Assembly (NCBI GenBank): GCA_024398055.1
Contig: CP073749.1
Span: forward strand, 1,798,594-1,862,593
Origin: a bacterium SCSIO 12741
GTDB taxonomy: Bacteria; Bacteroidota; Bacteroidia; Flavobacteriales_G; Salibacteraceae
Reading direction: 5' to 3'
Length of the DNA stretch: 64,000 nucleotides
How positions within the stretch are numbered: position 1 is the stretch's first letter; each line of letters begins with the position of its first letter. The notes below the pieces were generated by a model. That model ran no database searches. It was not told the origin of the DNA and saw only the letters and a program-made list of their open reading frames with translations. This document shows, piece after piece, positions 3,235-30,838 of this stretch. Both the position numbers and the translations under genes were made by a program.

Positions 3235-4785
3235 TCAAAAAAGTTCTTGATGGCCTAACCCTCGTTCCCGTATTACGGAAGCTACAGGCACTTTTTTTAC
3301 CTGACTGGCTAGCCAGGAAATAATATCAAAATAATAGAATGGTTTTCGAGCTAATGGATCTTCTGCTATCTGCTCCATCCGTTGTCGGAGTTTATCAAAT
3401 TCGGAATGAATCATCTGTGGGTAGTATCGAGTTGTTCTTCGCAGGAAGGAAAGAATCTCCTGGTGAAACGGGTCCAGATTACGCATTCGGATGAAGTACT
3501 GATAAGTGGCTCGAATATTGCTAAACAGAAAGTCTACCTCGCCCTGTTCATAGAGTGTAACCAGCCGAAGTATTCGGGCATAGCCGTGGATGTCTTGCCG
3601 GTAGGTGAGGTCGTCCTGATGAATGATTTGATTGAGAAAATACAAGGCCCGGTCATACTGACCCACGCCAAAATAGAGGCAGGCAAATTTGTAGTTCAGC
3701 GTAATGATGTTGCGACTTTCCAGTCGATTGCCCCAAAAAGCTACCCCTTGTTGTATGTCTTCAATCAGCGACACGCCTCGCTCAAAATCACCAGTCATAA
3801 AAGCGGCATTGATACGGTGGTGAGATAAAATGCGAAAGAGCAGCAAGCTTTCATTATCCGATGGATTTCGCTTTAAAGACAGGCTAAACTCTTCCAATTG
3901 AGTCAGCACATCTAAGAATCGCCGCACTTCATTCATTCGAAAGAGTGAGTTAAGCAGTTGGTTCAGGGTTTTAAGATAAATCACTGGTCGGTGGTGTTCC
4001 AATTGCTGATCACGGATCAGGGTTTCTGCCAATCGCGAATACCGGTAACTTTTCAAAAAATCCTGTTGCACATAGTAGTACCAGTATTGAGCTCGGTAAT
4101 AATAGAATCGTTCGTTGAAACTCATGTCGCCCGAAAAAAAACGGGGCAGACTTTTTTCATAAAATCGTTTGAGAGCGGCAATGTCGTCTTCGTTTTCCAG
4201 GTATCCTTTTTCCACGAAGTGAGCGTGCATTTGCAACCCAAATCCAGCAAAGGCATTGATGCGTTCAATTTGACGAGCCGAATTTTCTGCCTCCATTCTT
4301 AAGCTGGTGGCCAGGTCCAATGAGTTGTTTCCCGAAAAATGGAGCTCGATAATCTTTTCGCGATAGAGCACTTCAAACCTCAATTCATCCAGGTGATAGC
4401 GTTCGGCGAGGCGGGTTACTTTTTGAAGCATCTGTCTACTCTGTTTCAGTAGTCCCTTGTTGTACAGTACGGAGGCATAATCCATTTTCTCTCGAATCTG
4501 CAGATCCACGTCTTTGCGTACAGTTTGTTGCCGCAACGATTCCAGTAGATGATCGTACAGGCTTATTTTCAAATTGCTCAGCTGTTCGGCTTTGATGTGG
4601 GGATGTTTCTTTAAAAAGTTGTCCGGATTAAATTTTCCAGGTTTATTAAGTGCCTCAAACAACTGCCCATAGTGAAGTTCCTTTCCGCCAGCCCGGCCTT
4701 TTAAGAACAGGTTGAAGTTCCTTTTCTCGGCCTTATTCAGGTTTTGGATGAGCTCTTTTAAATCTCTTGTGTTGTCTTTAGGCAC
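3235..4785 (-). CDS. Orphan alpha-helical repeat protein
   Basis: A 516-residue protein with no signal peptide or membrane segment, so cytoplasmic. The N-terminus (LIQNLNKAEKRNFNLFLK) belongs to a conserved Bacteroidota family of unknown role. The rest is helical throughout, rich in Leu, Arg and Tyr, with TPR-like helix pairs such as LYNKGLLKQSRQML (about 113-126) and FGVGQYDRALYFLNQI (about 374). No catalytic motif is visible. A scaffold or regulatory role is inferred from the repeat character only. It is divergent from the small gene at 4873 and likely monocistronic. Confidence 0.75.
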   Translation of the reverse strand: MPKDNTRDLKELIQNLNKAEKRNFNLFLKGRAGGKELHYGQLFEALNKPGKFNPDNFLKKHPHIKAEQLSNLKISLYDHLLESLRQQTVRKDVDLQIREKMDYASVLYNKGLLKQSRQMLQKVTRLAERYHLDELRFEVLYREKIIELHFSGNNSLDLATSLRMEAENSARQIERINAFAGFGLQMHAHFVEKGYLENEDDIAALKRFYEKSLPRFFSGDMSFNERFYYYRAQYWYYYVQQDFLKSYRYSRLAETLIRDQQLEHHRPVIYLKTLNQLLNSLFRMNEVRRFLDVLTQLEEFSLSLKRNPSDNESLLLFRILSHHRINAAFMTGDFERGVSLIEDIQQGVAFWGNRLESRNIITLNYKFACLYFGVGQYDRALYFLNQIIHQDDLTYRQDIHGYARILRLVTLYEQGEVDFLFSNIRATYQYFIRMRNLDPFHQEILSFLRRTTRYYPQMIHSEFDKLRQRMEQIAEDPLARKPFYYFDIISWLASQVKKVPVASVIRERGLGHQELF

Positions 4786-4872
4786 TGTATTGTTTGTTGT
4801 TTTAAAATATTGTTTTTGAGTTATTTATTGCAATAATAGTTCATTTATGATTTGTAGAAAGGATAGATTTAA

Positions 4873-6574: not shown

Positions 6575-8491
6575 TCATCGTTTTATCAGTTTCAAAGTCT
6601 CTTGGTGTCCTTCGTAGGTTACTTGCAAAAGATAAAGTCCTTCTATTTGATCCGTCAGGTCAATTCTTATTTCAGTTGCATTCATCTCTTGCCCTTTATG
6701 AATAACCCGACCTCTGATATCCCTAATTGAAAAATCAACGGTAGATTCATTGGGTACCTTTAATTTGAAGATGCCAGAGCTTGGATTTGGGGCAACTTCA
6801 ATTTTGACATTTGGAATCACAGGTTGATCGCCTATCCCAACTGCTTCGGAAGCCACATCAGACTTTTTTGAGCCTATTGATTTGCAGAATCGGTGAGTCC
6901 CGTAAAAGTGTCTATACAATTTTCCATGCTTACCGATATAGAAAATTTCTCCATTACCATGGCCGGCCGCAAGGCCCCCTTGAGCATCGACCGAATGCAA
7001 TGCACCATACCAGAAAACGGCTTTATGCCAACCGTTATTAGCATCCTTGTACAAGCATTCTAAACCTGAGTAATTGGTAACGAAAAATATTTGGCCTGAT
7101 GCGTTGCATTGAAGTTGGCAATCTCCTGGCCTTACATTATGAGGTACAAGATGGTTAAACCTGTTTCTATGCCATTGACCATTTTCGTAATAAATGCAAT
7201 CAATTGAGTTGTCGGTTGTTTGGTAAAAAACTCTCCCATCTGGTGTTATGGCAGGGGCGCCACCTGAAACATTTCCGGGAACAATGTTGGAAAACGTATG
7301 TTTTAACCACGTTCCATTGTGCATATACAAGCATTCTAAGTCTCCTACATTTGATCTAAAAAATACTTTTCCGGTTGGTCCAGCAGTGGGGTTACCTCCA
7401 ACATTGTTAGGAATCAGGTTGGAAAAGCTGTGTTTGTGCCAAGCACCGTTTTGGTAGTATAAGCAACTAATGGAGTTGTTTGTCGTGCGATAGAATACCT
7501 CTCCAGTTGACCTTATCGTTAGTCCTCCTGCAACATCAAAGCCTGAAACACTGGATAGGTCCGCATAATGCCAGGTACCTGCTGACTTATAAACGACTCC
7601 CATGGAATTGTCTGTCTTTCGGTAAAAGACTTTGCCCGAGTTATTTGCTGCCAATTCTCCACCGACATTTCCTGCAATCGAAGACATGTCGTATAACTTG
7701 TAACCTGATGCAGTTTTTTCAACTCTTTTCAGAGTATGGTCGGTTTCAACATAAAATACCTCATCGTTTGAGCCTACAGCTATTGAGTTGTTTTTTGCGC
7801 TATTTGGAACGATATTTTGCTTTGGTAAATTTTCAATTCTCCAAACATCATCGCAATAATCAGGTAGGTTGGCACTTCGGACATTTATTTCAAGTTCTAC
7901 CCTTTCGAGTTCAATAAAGTCTCCACTTTGAGCGCAAAAGCTAATATCAACATAGCTGTCATTTGGTCTTTTATTATAAGACGAACGGGGTACACCCATG
8001 CCTTTCGGAGCTGTATGATATTGTGGTAGATTGGTCCCCTGAATAGTGCCGATAGGAGTATGTGTTTCTCCCGGAGAAATATGCGCTAAGGCAAAAGCCT
8101 GAGAGGTGGTTCCACCAAATACATTGGAAATAGGAATGTGGACTCTAACGGCAGTTTGAAAATGGTATCCACTCGGCATCTTGGCCCAATAGATTAACGT
8201 CATTGAAGTAATATCTGAGTTTTTTACACCTGGATAATTAAATCTATAGGTATGGTTAAAGGTTTCGGTTAATCCCGCGAAACATGAAGAAGGAAATGTA
8301 TGCCATTTGCCTACGAAGTTGCTATTGGTAATGCGATAGGAATTACCATTATTACTACACTTCGACCTTACTACTTTAAGGACTGCATTGGGGGATGATA
8401 TTCGCAATTTATAAGTGTTAGTCTGGCTATAAACACTTGTAGTCATTAGCAAAAAAAATAGCGCCATGAAATGCGCGGTAAACTTGTTCAT
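6575..8491 (-). CDS. T9SS-secreted protein with lectin-like propeller repeats
   Basis: A 638-residue secreted protein. The start is set at the ATG giving MNKFTAHFMALFF, because that yields a clean signal peptide ending near VYSQ; a longer open frame upstream gives none. The middle (about 255-545) holds about six to seven repeats of about 49 residues, each with a core like VFYRTTNNSISCLYY then GAWHKHSFSNL. This is the pattern of PLL/tectonin-type seven-bladed sugar-binding propellers. The C-terminal 75 residues are a T9SS type A sorting domain (APNPSSGIFKL...GLYLLQVTYEG). By family it should be cleaved and anchored on or released from the cell surface. Glycan binding is inferred from the repeat pattern. 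Confidence 0.85.
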   Translation of the reverse strand: MNKFTAHFMALFFLLMTTSVYSQTNTYKLRISSPNAVLKVVRSKCSNNGNSYRITNSNFVGKWHTFPSSCFAGLTETFNHTYRFNYPGVKNSDITSMTLIYWAKMPSGYHFQTAVRVHIPISNVFGGTTSQAFALAHISPGETHTPIGTIQGTNLPQYHTAPKGMGVPRSSYNKRPNDSYVDISFCAQSGDFIELERVELEINVRSANLPDYCDDVWRIENLPKQNIVPNSAKNNSIAVGSNDEVFYVETDHTLKRVEKTASGYKLYDMSSIAGNVGGELAANNSGKVFYRKTDNSMGVVYKSAGTWHYADLSSVSGFDVAGGLTIRSTGEVFYRTTNNSISCLYYQNGAWHKHSFSNLIPNNVGGNPTAGPTGKVFFRSNVGDLECLYMHNGTWLKHTFSNIVPGNVSGGAPAITPDGRVFYQTTDNSIDCIYYENGQWHRNRFNHLVPHNVRPGDCQLQCNASGQIFFVTNYSGLECLYKDANNGWHKAVFWYGALHSVDAQGGLAAGHGNGEIFYIGKHGKLYRHFYGTHRFCKSIGSKKSDVASEAVGIGDQPVIPNVKIEVAPNPSSGIFKLKVPNESTVDFSIRDIRGRVIHKGQEMNATEIRIDLTDQIEGLYLLQVTYEGHQETLKLIKR

Positions 8492-24562: not shown

Positions 24563-24848
24563 GCTATAAAATTAAGGATTTGAAAGGCCGCTGTAAACAG
24601 GCAATTGACAAATTCAAGTTGGCCCATTGCTACTTGGCTCTTTGGGTTTTTGAGGAGAGATGGCAAGCCGAAGTTTATCCGGGAAGAATAAAGGAGAACG
24701 TTCCTCTGTGACCAATTTTGGCCCGCTCGCAAAAAGAACTCTACAAGAAACAAAAAAGAACCAGCAAGTCATGAAAAGATCGATGTTTTAGTGGGCTGAA
24801 ATTCATCAATTTGAATCATTGTTTCACCTCATTAAATCCAAAATCAAC

Positions 24849-26699
24849 ATGAACAAAAAATTACAATTAGCCTTTCTGGTTTTCACGGCATTTTTGATCC
24901 AGACGACCGCTATCGCTCAATTTGGTCCACCTCAGGCCTATAAATTCCAAATTGACCACGTCTTCAACGGAATGCCCATTGCCTCCGAAAGGGTTCAGGT
25001 TACTTCAACTATTCAGGTGCCAGATGGATACTTAATATTAGGTAATATCGAAAGGCTCAATCCCAATGGGGATATGGCGAATAAAATAATCATGGCCCAC
25101 GTAGATCACCACGGAGAAATTCCCAATTCGAACTTCTGGATAAAGGAGTACGGGGATGACGTAACCAATCAATTGGGGCATCAAATCATTCGGGATTACC
25201 TGGGTAATTATGTTGTTCTTGCTGAAGAGATGGACCAATATCTAACTCCGTCCAGAAGAATTTTACTTTATAACGTTGACCTGAGCGGGAATATCTCCAA
25301 TGTTAAAACGTACAATTTTTTCAAGCCCGGTAATTTCGGTTATTGCTCGACCAGAGGGATTGAAATCATTCCTACTTTGGGACCCAATGGTCCGAGTGGA
25401 TACGCGATCTGTGGAGCAAGGTTCGAATGCACTATTCAATCGGATTATCCATTTGTGATCAGACTGGACAATAATTTTAACCTCACCTGGCAAAAGATAT
25501 ATCCAGTAGCCAATGGTAAGTTCTTATCGATAGCCCAGCTTCATGGATTGGGGCAAAATTTTATTGCTGTTGGTACCAATGGAGATGGAATCATGGCAGA
25601 AATTGACTACGCTACGGGAAATTTGGTGGTCAATGCTAACATTAACAACTCGGGCAATCTGTACTCTACAGGCGTTCGTAGTTTTAACAAAGTAATTAGC
25701 ACCTCAGATGGTGGTTTTGTTTTGGGCTCCTCCATTGGTTTGTATTCCACAAGTTCAGGAATTCCATCGGAAATCGGACTCCATAAATTTGATCAAACCA
25801 GAACCCGGGTTTGGTTTTCTGAATACGTCAACTTGAATTATAACAACAACGTATTGCTGGAAGATATCAAAGAGACATCACTGGGTTATGACGTGTTGCA
25901 CTCTTCTGAAAACGGGTTGATTATGACACGTATCGATCCCTTAAATGGAGATCCAGTTTTTAGTAAAAAATTCACTACTGGCTCAACATCTTCCTCTTTT
26001 GCCAGATTTCCTGAAACCAGCGTGAATTATCAAAAAATTCATTTCTCTCCCGGATCGATAATCAATGAAGGAACGGCTTTTGCGGCTCATTTTTCTCATG
26101 TTACCAATTTAGGCGGCCATCCGAATACCAATGAGCGAAAGGAGTTTAGATTGATTAAGATGGACTCCCAGTTTGAGGCCGGATCGTCCAATTGCCAGCT
26201 TCCGGTGATCATTGCGAAAGATCCATTCTGTACACTTCAACTTTTTGGACCGTGCCGACAGCTTTATGCCAATTATGGTATGCTGGCAAGTATTTCTGAA
26301 GGTATGATAGCAAGTACAGTTCCTTGGGGTTTGTCTAACCTATCCGATACCACTCATTACCAATGTGCTGAAGTAGTTTACGAAGTATCTATTCCTGATG
26401 ATCAGGATGATGGCGATGTGCAAACGCCTTTCTTTAAAACCACCACGGGTATTGATGCTACAGCCAACCAAGAGGTTGAATTTACCTTGAAAACCCTTCA
26501 AATCTCTGGCCTTTATGAATTGGAGTCGTCCGTGGAAATTGAGCGCGTTCAAGCACTCGATTTGAGTGGCAAAGTGGTTTTGGACAAAACCGATAGGGTT
26601 CAAGAAGTTGATCTGAGAGAATACCAAGGAGGAGTTTACTTGATTCGGGCCTTCATGAATTCCGGGGAAGTAATCACCTCAAAAGTGATTAAACAATAA
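24849..26699 (+). CDS. T9SS-secreted protein of unknown function
   Basis: A 616-residue secreted protein from the ATG giving MNKKLQLAFLVFTAFLIQTTAIAQ (a TTG-type start upstream adds ten unlikely residues). About 30-460 is a series of beta-rich repeats around DGYLILGNIERLN, NYVVLAEEMD and GGFVLGSSIGLYS. This is the pattern of Bacteroidota exported propeller-like proteins and similar to the protein at 13120. A Cys-containing segment (CQLPVIIAKDPFC) follows. The end (SSVEIERVQALDLSGK...GGVYLIRAFMNSG) is a short T9SS type A-like sorting domain. Confidence 0.8.
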   Translation: MNKKLQLAFLVFTAFLIQTTAIAQFGPPQAYKFQIDHVFNGMPIASERVQVTSTIQVPDGYLILGNIERLNPNGDMANKIIMAHVDHHGEIPNSNFWIKEYGDDVTNQLGHQIIRDYLGNYVVLAEEMDQYLTPSRRILLYNVDLSGNISNVKTYNFFKPGNFGYCSTRGIEIIPTLGPNGPSGYAICGARFECTIQSDYPFVIRLDNNFNLTWQKIYPVANGKFLSIAQLHGLGQNFIAVGTNGDGIMAEIDYATGNLVVNANINNSGNLYSTGVRSFNKVISTSDGGFVLGSSIGLYSTSSGIPSEIGLHKFDQTRTRVWFSEYVNLNYNNNVLLEDIKETSLGYDVLHSSENGLIMTRIDPLNGDPVFSKKFTTGSTSSSFARFPETSVNYQKIHFSPGSIINEGTAFAAHFSHVTNLGGHPNTNERKEFRLIKMDSQFEAGSSNCQLPVIIAKDPFCTLQLFGPCRQLYANYGMLASISEGMIASTVPWGLSNLSDTTHYQCAEVVYEVSIPDDQDDGDVQTPFFKTTTGIDATANQEVEFTLKTLQISGLYELESSVEIERVQALDLSGKVVLDKTDRVQEVDLREYQGGVYLIRAFMNSGEVITSKVIKQ

Positions 26700-26840: not shown

Positions 26841-27485
26841 ATGATCCTGCGAACCAATCCATCCATTTCCAATTTTTGGCTAATTGCCTGTCTTGGCGCA
26901 GTGATTGTATCTTGTTGCCCTCGGCAAAATGGCACCTGCCCATACCCCGAAGACATCGATTGGATGGCTCAAATGAGCGGCCAATTGGTTCGTTTTGAAT
27001 CCACCGATGCGAATTGGGTAGAGCTGCAATTTGAGGCCGGTGACACCTTCGGTTATTCAGTCGATTCGGATTGTGCTAATACCCTGGTATCCGTTTCAGA
27101 TTGTGGTTGCAATTGCGAGTCCAGCACAAGAATAGGTGGATCGGTAACTCGTTCGTCCAATAATTTTAAGGGCAGGCTGTATTTTACCTCGGCCATTGTT
27201 TCTGATTTGGACGATGAGCAGGAAACCGTTACCATGACTTACTCGGTATTCAATCAATACAGTACCTCCGAAAAAAGCTTGTTTGAAAATCCCTCTGTTG
27301 TACGTCCTTTTCTGGATGCTACTGTTGGGTGGGACCGGGAGAACGTTTCCTACAAAAACGTAGTAGAACTTAGTCATTCAAACCCCAGGGAATCGGATTA
27401 CGTGGTCAAGTCCTTTTATACCCAATCAGATGGTATAGTTGGTTTTGAGATGAACACCGGAGAACTGTATTTACTCAGAAAATGA
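26841..27485 (+). CDS. Lipoprotein, unknown function
   Basis: A 214-residue lipoprotein. A hydrophobic stretch (WLIACLGAVIVSC) ends in a lipobox Cys at about 25. The mature part starts Cys-rich (CPRQNGTCPYPEDIDW; later DCGCNC) and is otherwise beta-rich. The family was not recognised. Its stop overlaps the start of the next gene as ATGA, so the two are translationally coupled, and the product may act together with the aspartic-protease-like protein. Confidence 0.7.
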   Translation: MILRTNPSISNFWLIACLGAVIVSCCPRQNGTCPYPEDIDWMAQMSGQLVRFESTDANWVELQFEAGDTFGYSVDSDCANTLVSVSDCGCNCESSTRIGGSVTRSSNNFKGRLYFTSAIVSDLDDEQETVTMTYSVFNQYSTSEKSLFENPSVVRPFLDATVGWDRENVSYKNVVELSHSNPRESDYVVKSFYTQSDGIVGFEMNTGELYLLRK

Positions 27486-28402
27486 GAGCCCCCCTTTTCA
27501 ATATCACCGGATTGCTTTTGGGAATTACCATGCTGTACTCCCAAGGTAGTGTTGGGCAAGAAAACCAACCCTTTTCAGACACCATATCCTTCCACTTGAC
27601 CGATCATAACAACCTCTCTGTTCAAGCGGTAATTAATCAAAGGGATACGGTAGATCTCATGTTTCATACCGCTGCAGGAGATGTGACTTTAATCTCCGAA
27701 GTCATTGGAGATTTACCCTCCTTGGTTTGGCAAGAACCTCAGGCCGTGCATAGCTGGGGAGGTGCCAATGAAGCCCGGGTAAGCGTGAACAATGAAATGC
27801 ACATTGGCCGGATTCAAACAGATAGTTTGACCATTTGGGAAACCCAGAGATCCGGACCTAAAACGGATGGTAAATTCGGACCCGACTTTTTCGGCGGAAG
27901 GATATTTGAAATGAATTACGATGACGAAGTCCTTCGGGTCTATTCCGCTCTTCCGACCCAGATGGAAGGTTACCAGAAACTGCCATTGGTCATTGAAAAT
28001 GGATTGATGTTTATCGAGGCCACCGCACGGGTAGGTAAAAAGGAATACACCCATCGATTTTTGATTCATTCCGGTTATGGTGGCACCCTATTATTTGATG
28101 ACGCTTTTGCCCAGGAAAGCCAATTGGGAGAGCAAATCGTCATCACCGATCAACAAGAGTTGAAGGATTCGTATGGCAATGTGATCAAAACGCAGAAGGG
28201 CCTACTCCCGAGTTTTAAATTGGGAGACCTGGAATTTCAAAACCTGCCAGTGGGCTTTTTTGAAGGCGCCTTGGGGCGGCAAAAAGTAAGCGTATTAGGC
28301 GGCGATTTGCTAAAGCGCTTAAACCTCATTTTTGACCTGGAAAATGAAACCATCTATATCGCGGCCAGTCATTGGAAAGGGACTCCACACTCGGGTTCTT
28401 AG
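27482..28402 (+). CDS. Aspartic-protease homologue with both catalytic Asp lost
   Basis: A 306-residue exported protein with an N-terminal signal (MRAPLFNITGLLLGITML). It follows the layout of Bacteroidota retropepsin-like aspartic proteases: a first lobe motif at 61-65 that reads FHTAA where active enzymes have FDTGA, a spacer with GPDFFGGRIFEMNYDDEVLRV, and a second motif at 195-201 that reads IHSGYGG where DTGYGG or DSGYGG is expected. It ends with GGDLLKRLNLIFDLENETI. Both catalytic Asp residues are His62 and His196, each one base change (GAT to CAT). Peptidase activity is therefore unlikely; peptide binding or another chemistry is possible. It is coupled to the lipoprotein upstream. Confidence 0.8.
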   Translation: MRAPLFNITGLLLGITMLYSQGSVGQENQPFSDTISFHLTDHNNLSVQAVINQRDTVDLMFHTAAGDVTLISEVIGDLPSLVWQEPQAVHSWGGANEARVSVNNEMHIGRIQTDSLTIWETQRSGPKTDGKFGPDFFGGRIFEMNYDDEVLRVYSALPTQMEGYQKLPLVIENGLMFIEATARVGKKEYTHRFLIHSGYGGTLLFDDAFAQESQLGEQIVITDQQELKDSYGNVIKTQKGLLPSFKLGDLEFQNLPVGFFEGALGRQKVSVLGGDLLKRLNLIFDLENETIYIAASHWKGTPHSGS

Positions 28403-28460: not shown

Positions 28461-28516
28461 GTTTAAATGAACGATGTTTCTTCCGATCCAGAGGAAGCTG
28501 ACTATTTTTGTATCCC

Positions 28517-29146
28517 ATGCCGGCACGAAGCGAAATAAAAAACATCATTTTTGACCTTGGCGGAGTCATTATCAATATTGACCCGGGTCTCACCCTGGAG
28601 CAGTTTCAAAAAGTTTATCCCGGAAATTTTCTCGATCGCTTTCGTCAACCCGACGTGCAGGAGATTCTTCACGGATTTGAAACCGGGAAATACGACGAGG
28701 CCAATTTTATCAAGGAGCTCCAAAAGGCTTTTGACTTTGAACTCGAAAAGGAAGAATTTATCCGGATTTGGAACCTAACGCTTCTGGATACGCCGCCCGA
28801 ACGAATCAGTTTGATTCAGCAGTTGAGCAACGAATTTAGAGTGTTTCTCCTGAGCAACACCAATCCAACACACATGGAAGCTTACTTTGCTCAGATGGCC
28901 GAGGACCAAGAACTCTGGTTCCCCGATTTATTTGAAAAAGCCTATTTGTCCTACAACATGGGCCTACGGAAACCAGATCCCGAAATATTTAAAACCGTTC
29001 TCAAAGAGCAAGTTTTGCTACCCGAAGAAACCCTCTTTTTGGACGATACATTGGAACATATCGAATCGGCAAAATCGGTCGGAATCCATACCTGGCAGGT
29101 TACAGATAAGCCGATAACATCCCTACTTAATGATACTTGGAGGTAA
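28517..29146 (+). CDS. HAD superfamily hydrolase (subfamily IA, YihX-like)
   Basis: A 209-residue HAD phosphatase from the ATG at 28517. Motif I is IIFDLGGVI with nucleophile Asp13, motif II LLSNTN, motif III the Lys in GLRKPDPEIF, and motif IV FLDDTLEHI. The helical cap lies between about 20 and 85. YihX-type members dephosphorylate small sugar phosphates in the cytoplasm. The last 17 bases overlap mtnA, and mtnA in turn overlaps the aldolase, so a link to pentose-phosphate salvage is likely. Its exact substrate is not evident from the sequence. Confidence 0.87.
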   Translation: MPARSEIKNIIFDLGGVIINIDPGLTLEQFQKVYPGNFLDRFRQPDVQEILHGFETGKYDEANFIKELQKAFDFELEKEEFIRIWNLTLLDTPPERISLIQQLSNEFRVFLLSNTNPTHMEAYFAQMAEDQELWFPDLFEKAYLSYNMGLRKPDPEIFKTVLKEQVLLPEETLFLDDTLEHIESAKSVGIHTWQVTDKPITSLLNDTWR

Positions 29147-30239
29147 ACCCCGAAGAACGATTGGATTGCACCCCGATAATCCGAAAATCGTACAAACCTT
29201 TGATCAACGCCGATTTCCACACGAAACGGTTTTAACCGATTTGAAGAGTAGCAAAGATGCTGAATATGCGATAAAAGACATGTGGGTAAGAGGTGCACCT
29301 TTGATTGGAGCAACAGCCGCCTTTGGTGTCTATTTGGCGGGTTTGGAAGCCTTGGAAAACTCCGATCCAAAAGCCTATTTGGAAGAACGATTTGCCGCTC
29401 TGGAAGCGACGCGTCCCACGGCTGTGAACCTCCTTTGGGCGCTCAATGAGCAAAAGAAAAACCTTCAGGGTGATCTTTCCGGGGAAGAATTAATCGCGGC
29501 TTTCAGAAAAACCGCGGAACAAATCGTTGAAGACGACGTGGCCATTTGCAGCAACATTGGTGAACACGGTTTAAAGTTGATCCAGAAAATTGCCGATCAG
29601 AAACCGGGTGAGCCAGTTCGTGTTTTGACCCATTGCAATGCCGGTTGGTTGGCTTGCATCGATTGGGGAACGGCTACTGCTCCGGTATACAAAGCTCAAT
29701 TGGCGGGTATCCCCATAGAGGTTTGGGTAGATGAAACCCGGCCGCGAAATCAAGGTGCCAACTTAACCGCATTTGAGTTGCAGCAGCAAGGCATCCCGTT
29801 TCAGGTAATTACAGACAATACGGGTGGTCACCTTATGCAGCATGGAATGGTTGACCTGGTAATTGTAGGTACAGATCGCACCACAAGGGATGGTGATGTG
29901 GCCAACAAAATTGGAACCTATTTAAAGGCCTTAGCTGCTTTTGATAACCATATTCCTTTTTATGTAGCTCTACCCTCCACGACCATCGACTGGACGATCA
30001 AGGATGGAGTGCAAGAAATTCCGATTGAAATGAGGTCGGAAGATGAGGTGCATTGGATTCACGGAAAGCGACCTGATGGAACCCTGGACAAGGTACGTGT
30101 TACTCCGGAAGGAAGCGCTGCGGCCAACTATGGCTTTGACGTTACCCCAGCCCGACTGGTCACCGGATTAATTACAGAGCGAGGAGTTTGTGAAGCCAGT
30201 GAAGCCGGATTACTTGAATTATTTCCAGAGCAGGTTTGA
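29130..30239 (+). CDS. mtnA: Methylthioribose-1-phosphate isomerase family (MtnA)
   Basis: A 369-residue isomerase. Family motifs are RGAPLIGATAAFG (54-66), THCNAGWLA with catalytic Cys169, VDETRPRNQGANLTAFEL (200-217) and GTDRTTRDGDVANKIGTY with catalytic Asp249. It converts 5-methylthioribose-1-phosphate to the ribulose form; close relatives (DrdI) do the same with 5-deoxyribose-1-phosphate. The gene overlaps the HAD gene by 17 bases and the class II aldolase by 4 (TTGA). Because no mtnB/C/D genes are nearby, the operon fits a short route through an aldolase better than the full methionine salvage pathway. Confidence 0.92.
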   Translation: MILGGKPRRTIGLHPDNPKIVQTFDQRRFPHETVLTDLKSSKDAEYAIKDMWVRGAPLIGATAAFGVYLAGLEALENSDPKAYLEERFAALEATRPTAVNLLWALNEQKKNLQGDLSGEELIAAFRKTAEQIVEDDVAICSNIGEHGLKLIQKIADQKPGEPVRVLTHCNAGWLACIDWGTATAPVYKAQLAGIPIEVWVDETRPRNQGANLTAFELQQQGIPFQVITDNTGGHLMQHGMVDLVIVGTDRTTRDGDVANKIGTYLKALAAFDNHIPFYVALPSTTIDWTIKDGVQEIPIEMRSEDEVHWIHGKRPDGTLDKVRVTPEGSAAANYGFDVTPARLVTGLITERGVCEASEAGLLELFPEQV

Positions 30240-30838
30240 GTACAATAGACGAAGGATATATTAAGTTTCAACTCCATTGGGAGGAAGGAGCGGCACCGTC
30301 TCAAAATATTCAGGAGTTGATTCAATACCGCGATCAGCTCTATCAAAAGGGGTGGATAGGCTTCGATAAAGTCCATAAGGTAGGATTTGGCAACATTTCT
30401 CTTCGCTTGGATAGATCGGATCATTTTATCATTTCATCCACGCAAACGGGCCATTTTAAGCAGACTCAACCCGAGCATTATTGCGAAGTTCTCAAATGTG
30501 ACATTCCGGCCAATACCGTTTGGTGCCTGGGTCCACTTCGAGCGTCTTCAGAGAGCATGAGTCATGCCGCGGTTTATTCCTGTTCTGAAAAGATTGGGGC
30601 CATTATCCACATTCACCAGCACGAACTCTGGATGCGAAGCAAGCATCAAATTCCCACTACGTCTGATGAAGTTGCCTACGGAACCCCTGAAATGGCTTAC
30701 GAAATTCAACGACTCTACCGGGAAACCTCCTTGCCGCAAGATGGCGTTCTGGCCATGGCCGGACACGAAGATGGCATCATTTCCTTCGGAGAAGATTTGG
30801 CCGAAGCCTATCGAAATTTAGAGCGGATATCGCTGTAA
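30236..30838 (+). CDS. Class II aldolase/adducin family protein
   Basis: A 200-residue zinc aldolase-type protein from a TTG start that overlaps the mtnA stop. Visible features are GFGNISLRL near 44-52, SSTQTGHF, an SSESMSHAAVY motif, and IIHIHQHELW with the metal-binding His pair, plus a further His in AMAGHEDGI. Candidates are MtnB (methylthioribulose-1-phosphate dehydratase), Ald2 (the aldolase of the DHAP shunt) and DrdA (5-deoxyribulose-1-phosphate aldolase). Context with mtnA and a HAD protein, without the other mtn genes, favours an aldolase that yields DHAP and an aldehyde. Confidence 0.85.
   Translation: MSTIDEGYIKFQLHWEEGAAPSQNIQELIQYRDQLYQKGWIGFDKVHKVGFGNISLRLDRSDHFIISSTQTGHFKQTQPEHYCEVLKCDIPANTVWCLGPLRASSESMSHAAVYSCSEKIGAIIHIHQHELWMRSKHQIPTTSDEVAYGTPEMAYEIQRLYRETSLPQDGVLAMAGHEDGIISFGEDLAEAYRNLERISL

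Follow-up and report, generated by a model that had tools for sequence, protein, structure and literature searches.

Within the window (the whole stretch of 64,000 nucleotides of the SCSIO 12741 genome analysed here), one gene encodes an apparently exported protein with the two-lobe pepsin fold in which His takes the place of both catalytic Asp residues. Two Asp residues are the defining feature of pepsin-fold peptidases, and the occurrence of a phylum-wide His/His group amounts to a natural experiment in active-site re-invention. The paired His residues are an old, selected change, and the remodelled site is almost certainly functional. The explanation that we favour as a whole, namely an exported pepsin-fold class with a rebuilt aspartic-protease centre, is given an even chance of being correct.

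The 5.1 Mb genome is a single contig. Two ORFs on the same strand were confirmed at the locus; their coordinates and those of the residues discussed below are listed in Table 1. The frame of the His/His gene is intact and its codon use is coding-like. A preliminary description of this DNA had reported that both catalytic Asp residues are changed to His in the motifs FHTAA and IHSGYGG. His62 and His196 are indeed present, and both are encoded by CAT, which is one base away from GAT. The accompanying statement that each site results from a single GAT to CAT change is correct as a description of the codons, but the change is not recent, as it is ancestral to the phylum-wide group.

Table 1. Features of the His/His locus; positions are those of the window.
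Feature	Position	Strand	Evidence or distribution
Orphan lipoprotein ORF, 214 aa, 8 Cys; neighbour	26841..27485	+	
ATGA stop/start overlap of the lipoprotein ORF and the His/His gene	27482..27485	+	
His/His protein, two-lobe pepsin fold, apparently exported, 306 aa	27482..28402	+	ORF, Pfam, model, lobe alignment
His62 codon CAT, N-lobe catalytic position, MFHTAAG	27665..27667	+	no Asp or Gln partner at site 2 in 161 rows
Trp92, N-lobe flap-type hairpin, SWGG	27755..27757	+	65/65 His/His; gap in 28/28 Gln/Gln
Lys131, N-lobe hydrophobic-hydrophobic-Gly region, DGKFG	27872..27874	+	65/65 His/His, 28/28 Gln/Gln
His196 codon CAT, C-lobe catalytic position, FLIHSGYGG	28067..28069	+	no Asp or Gln partner at site 1 in 161 rows
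Asp229, tip of C-lobe hairpin, DSYGN	28166..28168	+	65/65 His/His; Asn in 27/28 Gln/Gln

Pepsin-like aspartic peptidases belong to clan AA (MEROPS A1). The His/His protein shares with them, for example with rhizopuspepsin (2apr) and penicillopepsin (3app), two homologous pepsin-fold lobes, the loops of the catalytic positions, flap-type hairpins and hydrophobic-hydrophobic-Gly loops. It differs in having His for both Asp, with H-T-A and H-S-G in place of one Asp-Thr/Ser-Gly motif per lobe, and the identity in structural alignments is 10–18%. The protein matches the Pfam family PF13650 (Asp_protease_2) with 37.9 bits, compared to a gathering score of 24.3, and all 25 members of set A2 match this family with E ≤ 0.001. 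The two-lobe layout proposed in the preliminary description is borne out by sequence and structure. A comparison of N-lobe and C-lobe profiles from 161 relatives by means of hhalign gave a probability of 93.7% (E 2e-7) and paired His62 with His196; the 65 His/His rows alone gave the identical pairing with a weak score (1.8%, E 0.027). An AlphaFold2 model deduced from 25 sequences (pLDDT 86, pTM 0.81) matched known structures over approximately 245 residues, namely 9iy9 with Z 19.8, pepsins with Z about 18 and the plasmepsin HAP (3fnu) with Z 17.4. The model contains hairpins at residues 87–98 in the N-lobe and 220–228/234–247 in the C-lobe. According to secondary structure and the lobe-versus-lobe alignment, in which Trp92 aligns with Tyr231, SWGG and DSYGN are matching hairpin tips.

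The best structural match, 9iy9, is a putative endopeptidase of B. fragilis and thus from the same phylum. Its match extends over 246 residues with 12% identity, its chain is longer and contains an N-terminal part, and it was compared by structural match alone; an open-access search found no literature on it. Sequence searches against the PDB returned nothing up to E 10 with the 306-residue protein as query, and nothing convincing with the His/His profile (best E 0.42) or with an Asp/Asp paralogue (best E 0.018, retroviral-like aspartic protease 1). NCBIfam contains no model that matches the His/His protein or the lipoprotein at E 1.

A query with the single protein retrieved no relative among related loci. 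A homologue with 53% identity from another genus of the same family likewise contains FHTAA and IHSGYGG. Scanning the GTDB genome collection for two peptide patterns yielded 25 loci (L010–L034), and His occupies both sites in all 25. One of the patterns held His62, and this set is therefore biased at site 1 and unbiased at site 2; L034 lacks a long stretch of its N-lobe. The hosts are Saprospiria, Chitinophagia, Sphingobacteriia, Cytophagia, Flavobacteriia, records assigned to Bacteroidia or to Bacteroidetes only, and one Planctomycetota contig. At least five Bacteroidota classes contain His/His proteins. In addition, whole genomes were searched with profiles in partly overlapping sets of 35, 395, 244, 178, 181 and 180 genomes; the searches of the last five sets used no pattern that contains His62. 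Together with the loci found before, these searches gave 172 ORF hits with readable DNA, which comprised 73 His/His, 64 Asp/Asp and 28 Gln/Gln proteins, three partial hits and four one-column register slips. The latter were scored Leu/Asp by the aligner; their Asp-Thr/Ser-Gly motif lies in the following column, and they were treated as Asp/Asp. After removal of the partial hits (L034 and the two pieces of the broken gene L047) and of eight identical or contained ones, 161 non-redundant relatives remained, which are composed of 68 Asp/Asp, 65 His/His and 28 Gln/Gln proteins. None of these 161 has a mixed dyad of His with Asp or Gln, which includes the His/Asp pair of the HAP type. Random residues at both sites in homologues, which would have spoken against the preliminary description, were not seen; the only pairs that occurred were Asp/Asp, His/His and Gln/Gln.

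A second batch of 61 loci consisted of the remaining match rows from the searches of 244, 178, 181 and 180 genomes and of 16 matches from the 395-genome search. It added 54 Asp/Asp, three Gln/Gln and one His/His locus, two loci with site 1 unread and one broken His/His gene (L236); again, none of the 61 contained a mixed pair. From the 395-genome search, 30 matches were made loci and 16 were added later; the remainder, which were mostly weak or partial, are outside the counts. Because the profile was derived from His/His members and the cut-offs in the searches of 244, 178, 181 and 180 genomes were strict (1e-20, 1e-25), the Asp/Asp numbers must not be read as frequencies.

Several individual loci deserve mention. 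In L047 and L236, each from a single genome, a stop codon splits the His/His gene into two ORFs, owing to recent loss or an assembly error. One stop lies inside or close to the match in L081, L160 and L172. In Marivirga sericea (L016), two genes about 2 kb apart (3881–4843 and 6724–7635) are a His/His gene and its Asp/Asp paralogue. The Planctomycetota case (L030:6001–6879) is a His/His gene on an 833 kb contig of a MAG whose local sequence is GC-rich; it looks like an old transfer between phyla, although contamination is conceivable.

A phylogenetic tree was calculated without the two dyad columns. Mapping the three states on this tree required two changes, compared to an average of 69.8 for shuffled labels, and none of 200 shufflings was as low. 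The His/His and Gln/Gln proteins form a group of 92 rows (SH-aLRT 94), with L033 apart, which lies beside an Asp/Asp group of 42. On the tree, the Gln/Gln proteins constitute one group nested within His/His (SH-aLRT 99); Gln/Gln genes were read at L044, L045, L102–L124, L129–L131 and L221–L223. Five basal His/His proteins (L022 and the genes of L202–L205) carry an extra N-terminal domain that has homologues at the N-terminus of Asp/Asp paralogues, with E-values down to about 1e-28. This unnamed domain of approximately 100 residues, seen in L022, L202–L205 and L083, is present in some His/His and many Asp/Asp proteins; it gave no Pfam match in L022 or L083. Given the tree and the N-terminal domain common to basal His/His and Asp/Asp proteins, the simplest history would lead from Asp/Asp to His/His and on to Gln/Gln, with both sites altered each time. 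A single origin of His/His is likewise the simplest reading, but it is unproved because L033 is a long-branch His/His row whose position is unsettled and because the outgroup does not fall on one side of a branch.

In the 65 His/His proteins, CAT and CAC are used 44 and 21 times at the first site and 43 and 22 times at the second one. Both codons are thus in use at each site, which means that the DNA drifts while the residue is constant. The preliminary description had argued for selection for a new role and against simple decay, and this argument is supported by the coherence of the His/His group, by the lack of mixed pairs and by loop residues that were fixed together with the dyad.

Few positions are invariant within the group. 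The mean identity of the 65 His/His proteins is 43% (24–95%), and all 65 agree in only 12 of 282 columns, namely N44, M60, H62, W92, G125, G130, K131, G133, H196, G198, D229 and G273. Seven of these are not glycines, and H62 and H196 are invariant because the group is defined by them. Asp229 is a carboxylate conserved together with both His in all 65 proteins, as is expected of a two-His/one-carboxylate centre. The Asp/Asp proteins of the sister group are homologous over both lobes and have the N-terminal domain in common with the five basal His/His proteins. They differ in their dyad, and Trp92 and Asp229 are not invariant: position 229 holds Gly, Asn or Asp in 41 of the 42. At position 131, Lys is present in all His/His and all Gln/Gln proteins, whereas 30 of the 42 sister proteins have an Arg. 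In the Gln/Gln proteins, the stretch around W92 is missing in 28 of 28 cases and D229 is replaced by Asn in 27 of 28; the Asp229/Asn switch is one evolutionary event. The model suggests that the residues switching with the dyad sit on loops that border the cleft of the pepsin fold.

Most His/His proteins appear to be exported. A crude hydropathy test, which takes the most favourable Met and has a cut-off of 1.9, was passed at 57 of 63 loci (56 His/His and seven Gln/Gln), and five proteins contain a lipobox pattern. The signal-like N-terminus of the protein from SCSIO 12741 scores 1.88, just below this cut-off.

A few loci provide a lead to glycans. In L026, the His/His protein is fused to a GH43 domain (PF04616, E 5e-34) and an F5/8 type C domain. 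The same fusion was found in L028 and L029 by BLAST clustering and in L034 by reading, and these fusions belong to one lineage as far as the tree includes them. A BD-FAE esterase is fused to the His/His protein in L014, and in L013, a Lewinella MAG, the gene order is His/His – GH43 – BD-FAE. The putative link to glycans thus corresponds to three events among some 60 loci, i.e. one fusion lineage, one other fusion and one cluster. Most of the His/His copies at these loci have no recognised glycan enzyme adjoining and no conserved neighbour.

Aspartic proteolysis by the His/His protein is very unlikely because neither catalytic Asp remains. Pfam files the His/His genes under aspartyl protease, and our findings suggest that they encode something else. 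The combination of two His with an invariant Asp, Lys and flap Trp resembles an active site more than a relic. The location of W92, K131 and D229 at hairpin tips and in loops suggests that they line the cleft. His62 and His196 would lie on opposite sides of the pseudo-twofold axis, facing one another, and would be joined by Asp229, and it is very probable that the His pair is in direct contact with a metal, a substrate or a ligand. According to the geometry deduced from alignment and secondary structure, the resulting two-His/one-Asp centre could hold a metal ion or act as a general acid-base pair, Trp92 could close over the ligand, and Lys131 could bind a negative group. Its ligand or substrate would be extracytoplasmic and is probably something other than a simple peptide; the most promising candidates are glycans and glycan esters, although a glycan-related role is a tentative proposal at present. 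Whether the protein is catalytic at all is evenly balanced. A metal at the site is conceivable at somewhat less than even probability, and the metal or peptide binding envisaged in the preliminary description is plausible. The HAP dyad is reportedly occupied by zinc in the crystal, but this plays no part in the assessment given here.

There is a real chance that a new enzyme class stands behind the His/His group. Its most specific form would be an exported enzyme with a symmetric His/His pair plus Asp and Lys, either metal-dependent or with an RNase-like acid-base mechanism; we regard this form as possible, if slightly improbable. It would be present across Bacteroidota, and its dyad would have changed only pairwise, from Asp/Asp to His/His to Gln/Gln. 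The Gln/Gln branch, having no Trp92 and Asn for Asp229, would be a later, binding-only form and perhaps the pseudoenzyme counterpart of the His/His class. Some points argue for caution. The scaffold survives without His in the Gln/Gln descendants, which is as compatible with binding as with catalysis, and Asp229 may, on the tip of its hairpin, be out of reach of the dyad. The fold, the Pfam family and a single Asp to His change (HAP) are already known. Searches of the open-access literature, which omits most subscription papers, brought up neither a double-His group nor the paired states Asp/Asp, His/His and Gln/Gln. Likewise, the available passages of PMC11313796, PMC3134243, PMC11957791 and PMC4987639 do not describe a double-His group.

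The main alternative is a non-catalytic pseudoprotease with a peptide- or glycan-binding cleft, which the His pair would do no more than shape via hydrogen bonds. We assign it a considerable but clearly minor share of the probability. It would fit the Gln/Gln descendants, in which the symmetry of the pair is retained although good acid-base or metal-binding groups are lacking, and a binding module would suit both the fusion to GH43 with a discoidin-type domain and that to the BD-FAE esterase. Inactive proteins of this fold are known: according to the accessible part of PMC11313796, pepsin homologues such as EDGP that have lost the C-lobe Asp are inactive, and paired His are unmentioned there. 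The strict invariance of W92, K131, D229 and the His pair in 65 proteins with a mean identity of 43% is more than would be expected of a binding site. The protein could also still be a protease with His for Asp, like plasmepsin HAP (plasmepsin III) of Plasmodium, but this is improbable. The two proteins have the fold, the catalytic His of the N-lobe and a neighbouring Gly to Ala exchange in common; passages of PMC3134243 report Gly to Ala in both motifs of HAP, and the bacterial protein has it in the first one, HTAA. HAP is active despite its Asp32 to His exchange because it retains the C-lobe Asp, which is the required one (PMC11313796, in the part accessible). The bacterial protein differs precisely at this position, where it contains His196; HAP is changed at one site only. 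That the pair merely reflects decay or sequencing errors at two codons, as the single-base distance of both CAT codons from GAT might suggest, is practically out of the question. This option was rejected since another 64 non-redundant relatives, taken from other genomes, have the same pair with synonymous drift between CAT and CAC; moreover, the frame is intact and the codon use coding-like.

A two-gene system formed by the lipoprotein and the His/His protein is improbable as well. Both genes are on the same strand and overlap in ATGA, and both products look exported. The upstream ORF, which the preliminary description had called a Cys-rich lipoprotein, is a plausible gene: it has eight Cys and a lipobox-like I-V-S-C25, and its codon use is coding-like. 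The AlphaFold2 model of the lipoprotein reached a pLDDT of only 33. The joint function that had been suggested for the pair found no backing, as searches for lipoprotein homologues found none in 59 other relatives, in 394 further Bacteroidota genomes or in the sequence surrounding 67 loci, including the family relative with 53% identity. Adjoining genes were compared at 63 loci, where the longest ORFs of at least 90 residues that do not overlap were treated as genes; L033 and L192 were left out because they gave no core gene. No gene adjoining a His/His or Gln/Gln gene is common to more than three of these loci. Within eight genes on each side, the most widespread neighbour family is that of response regulators, which occur at 12 of the 63 loci in scattered positions. 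A partnership with the lipoprotein was therefore rejected as the main story, the partner gene not being conserved beside His/His genes. The gene pair looks incidental; the ATGA overlap may indicate shared transcription in SCSIO 12741, but the lipoprotein is an orphan, and the overlap says nothing about the His/His family.

Further genes of the window flank the pair. Upstream, positions 24819–26699 encode a large protein whose C-terminal segment resembles a T9SS sorting domain. It gave no NCBIfam match, and a gene of the same general kind is located upstream of the distant His/His gene in L002. Downstream, a gene for a HAD-type hydrolase (28508–29146) adjoins two overlapping genes at 29130–30838. 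The latter match MtnA above the cut-off and, more weakly and below the cut-off, MtnB, and they could possibly constitute a methionine-salvage pair.
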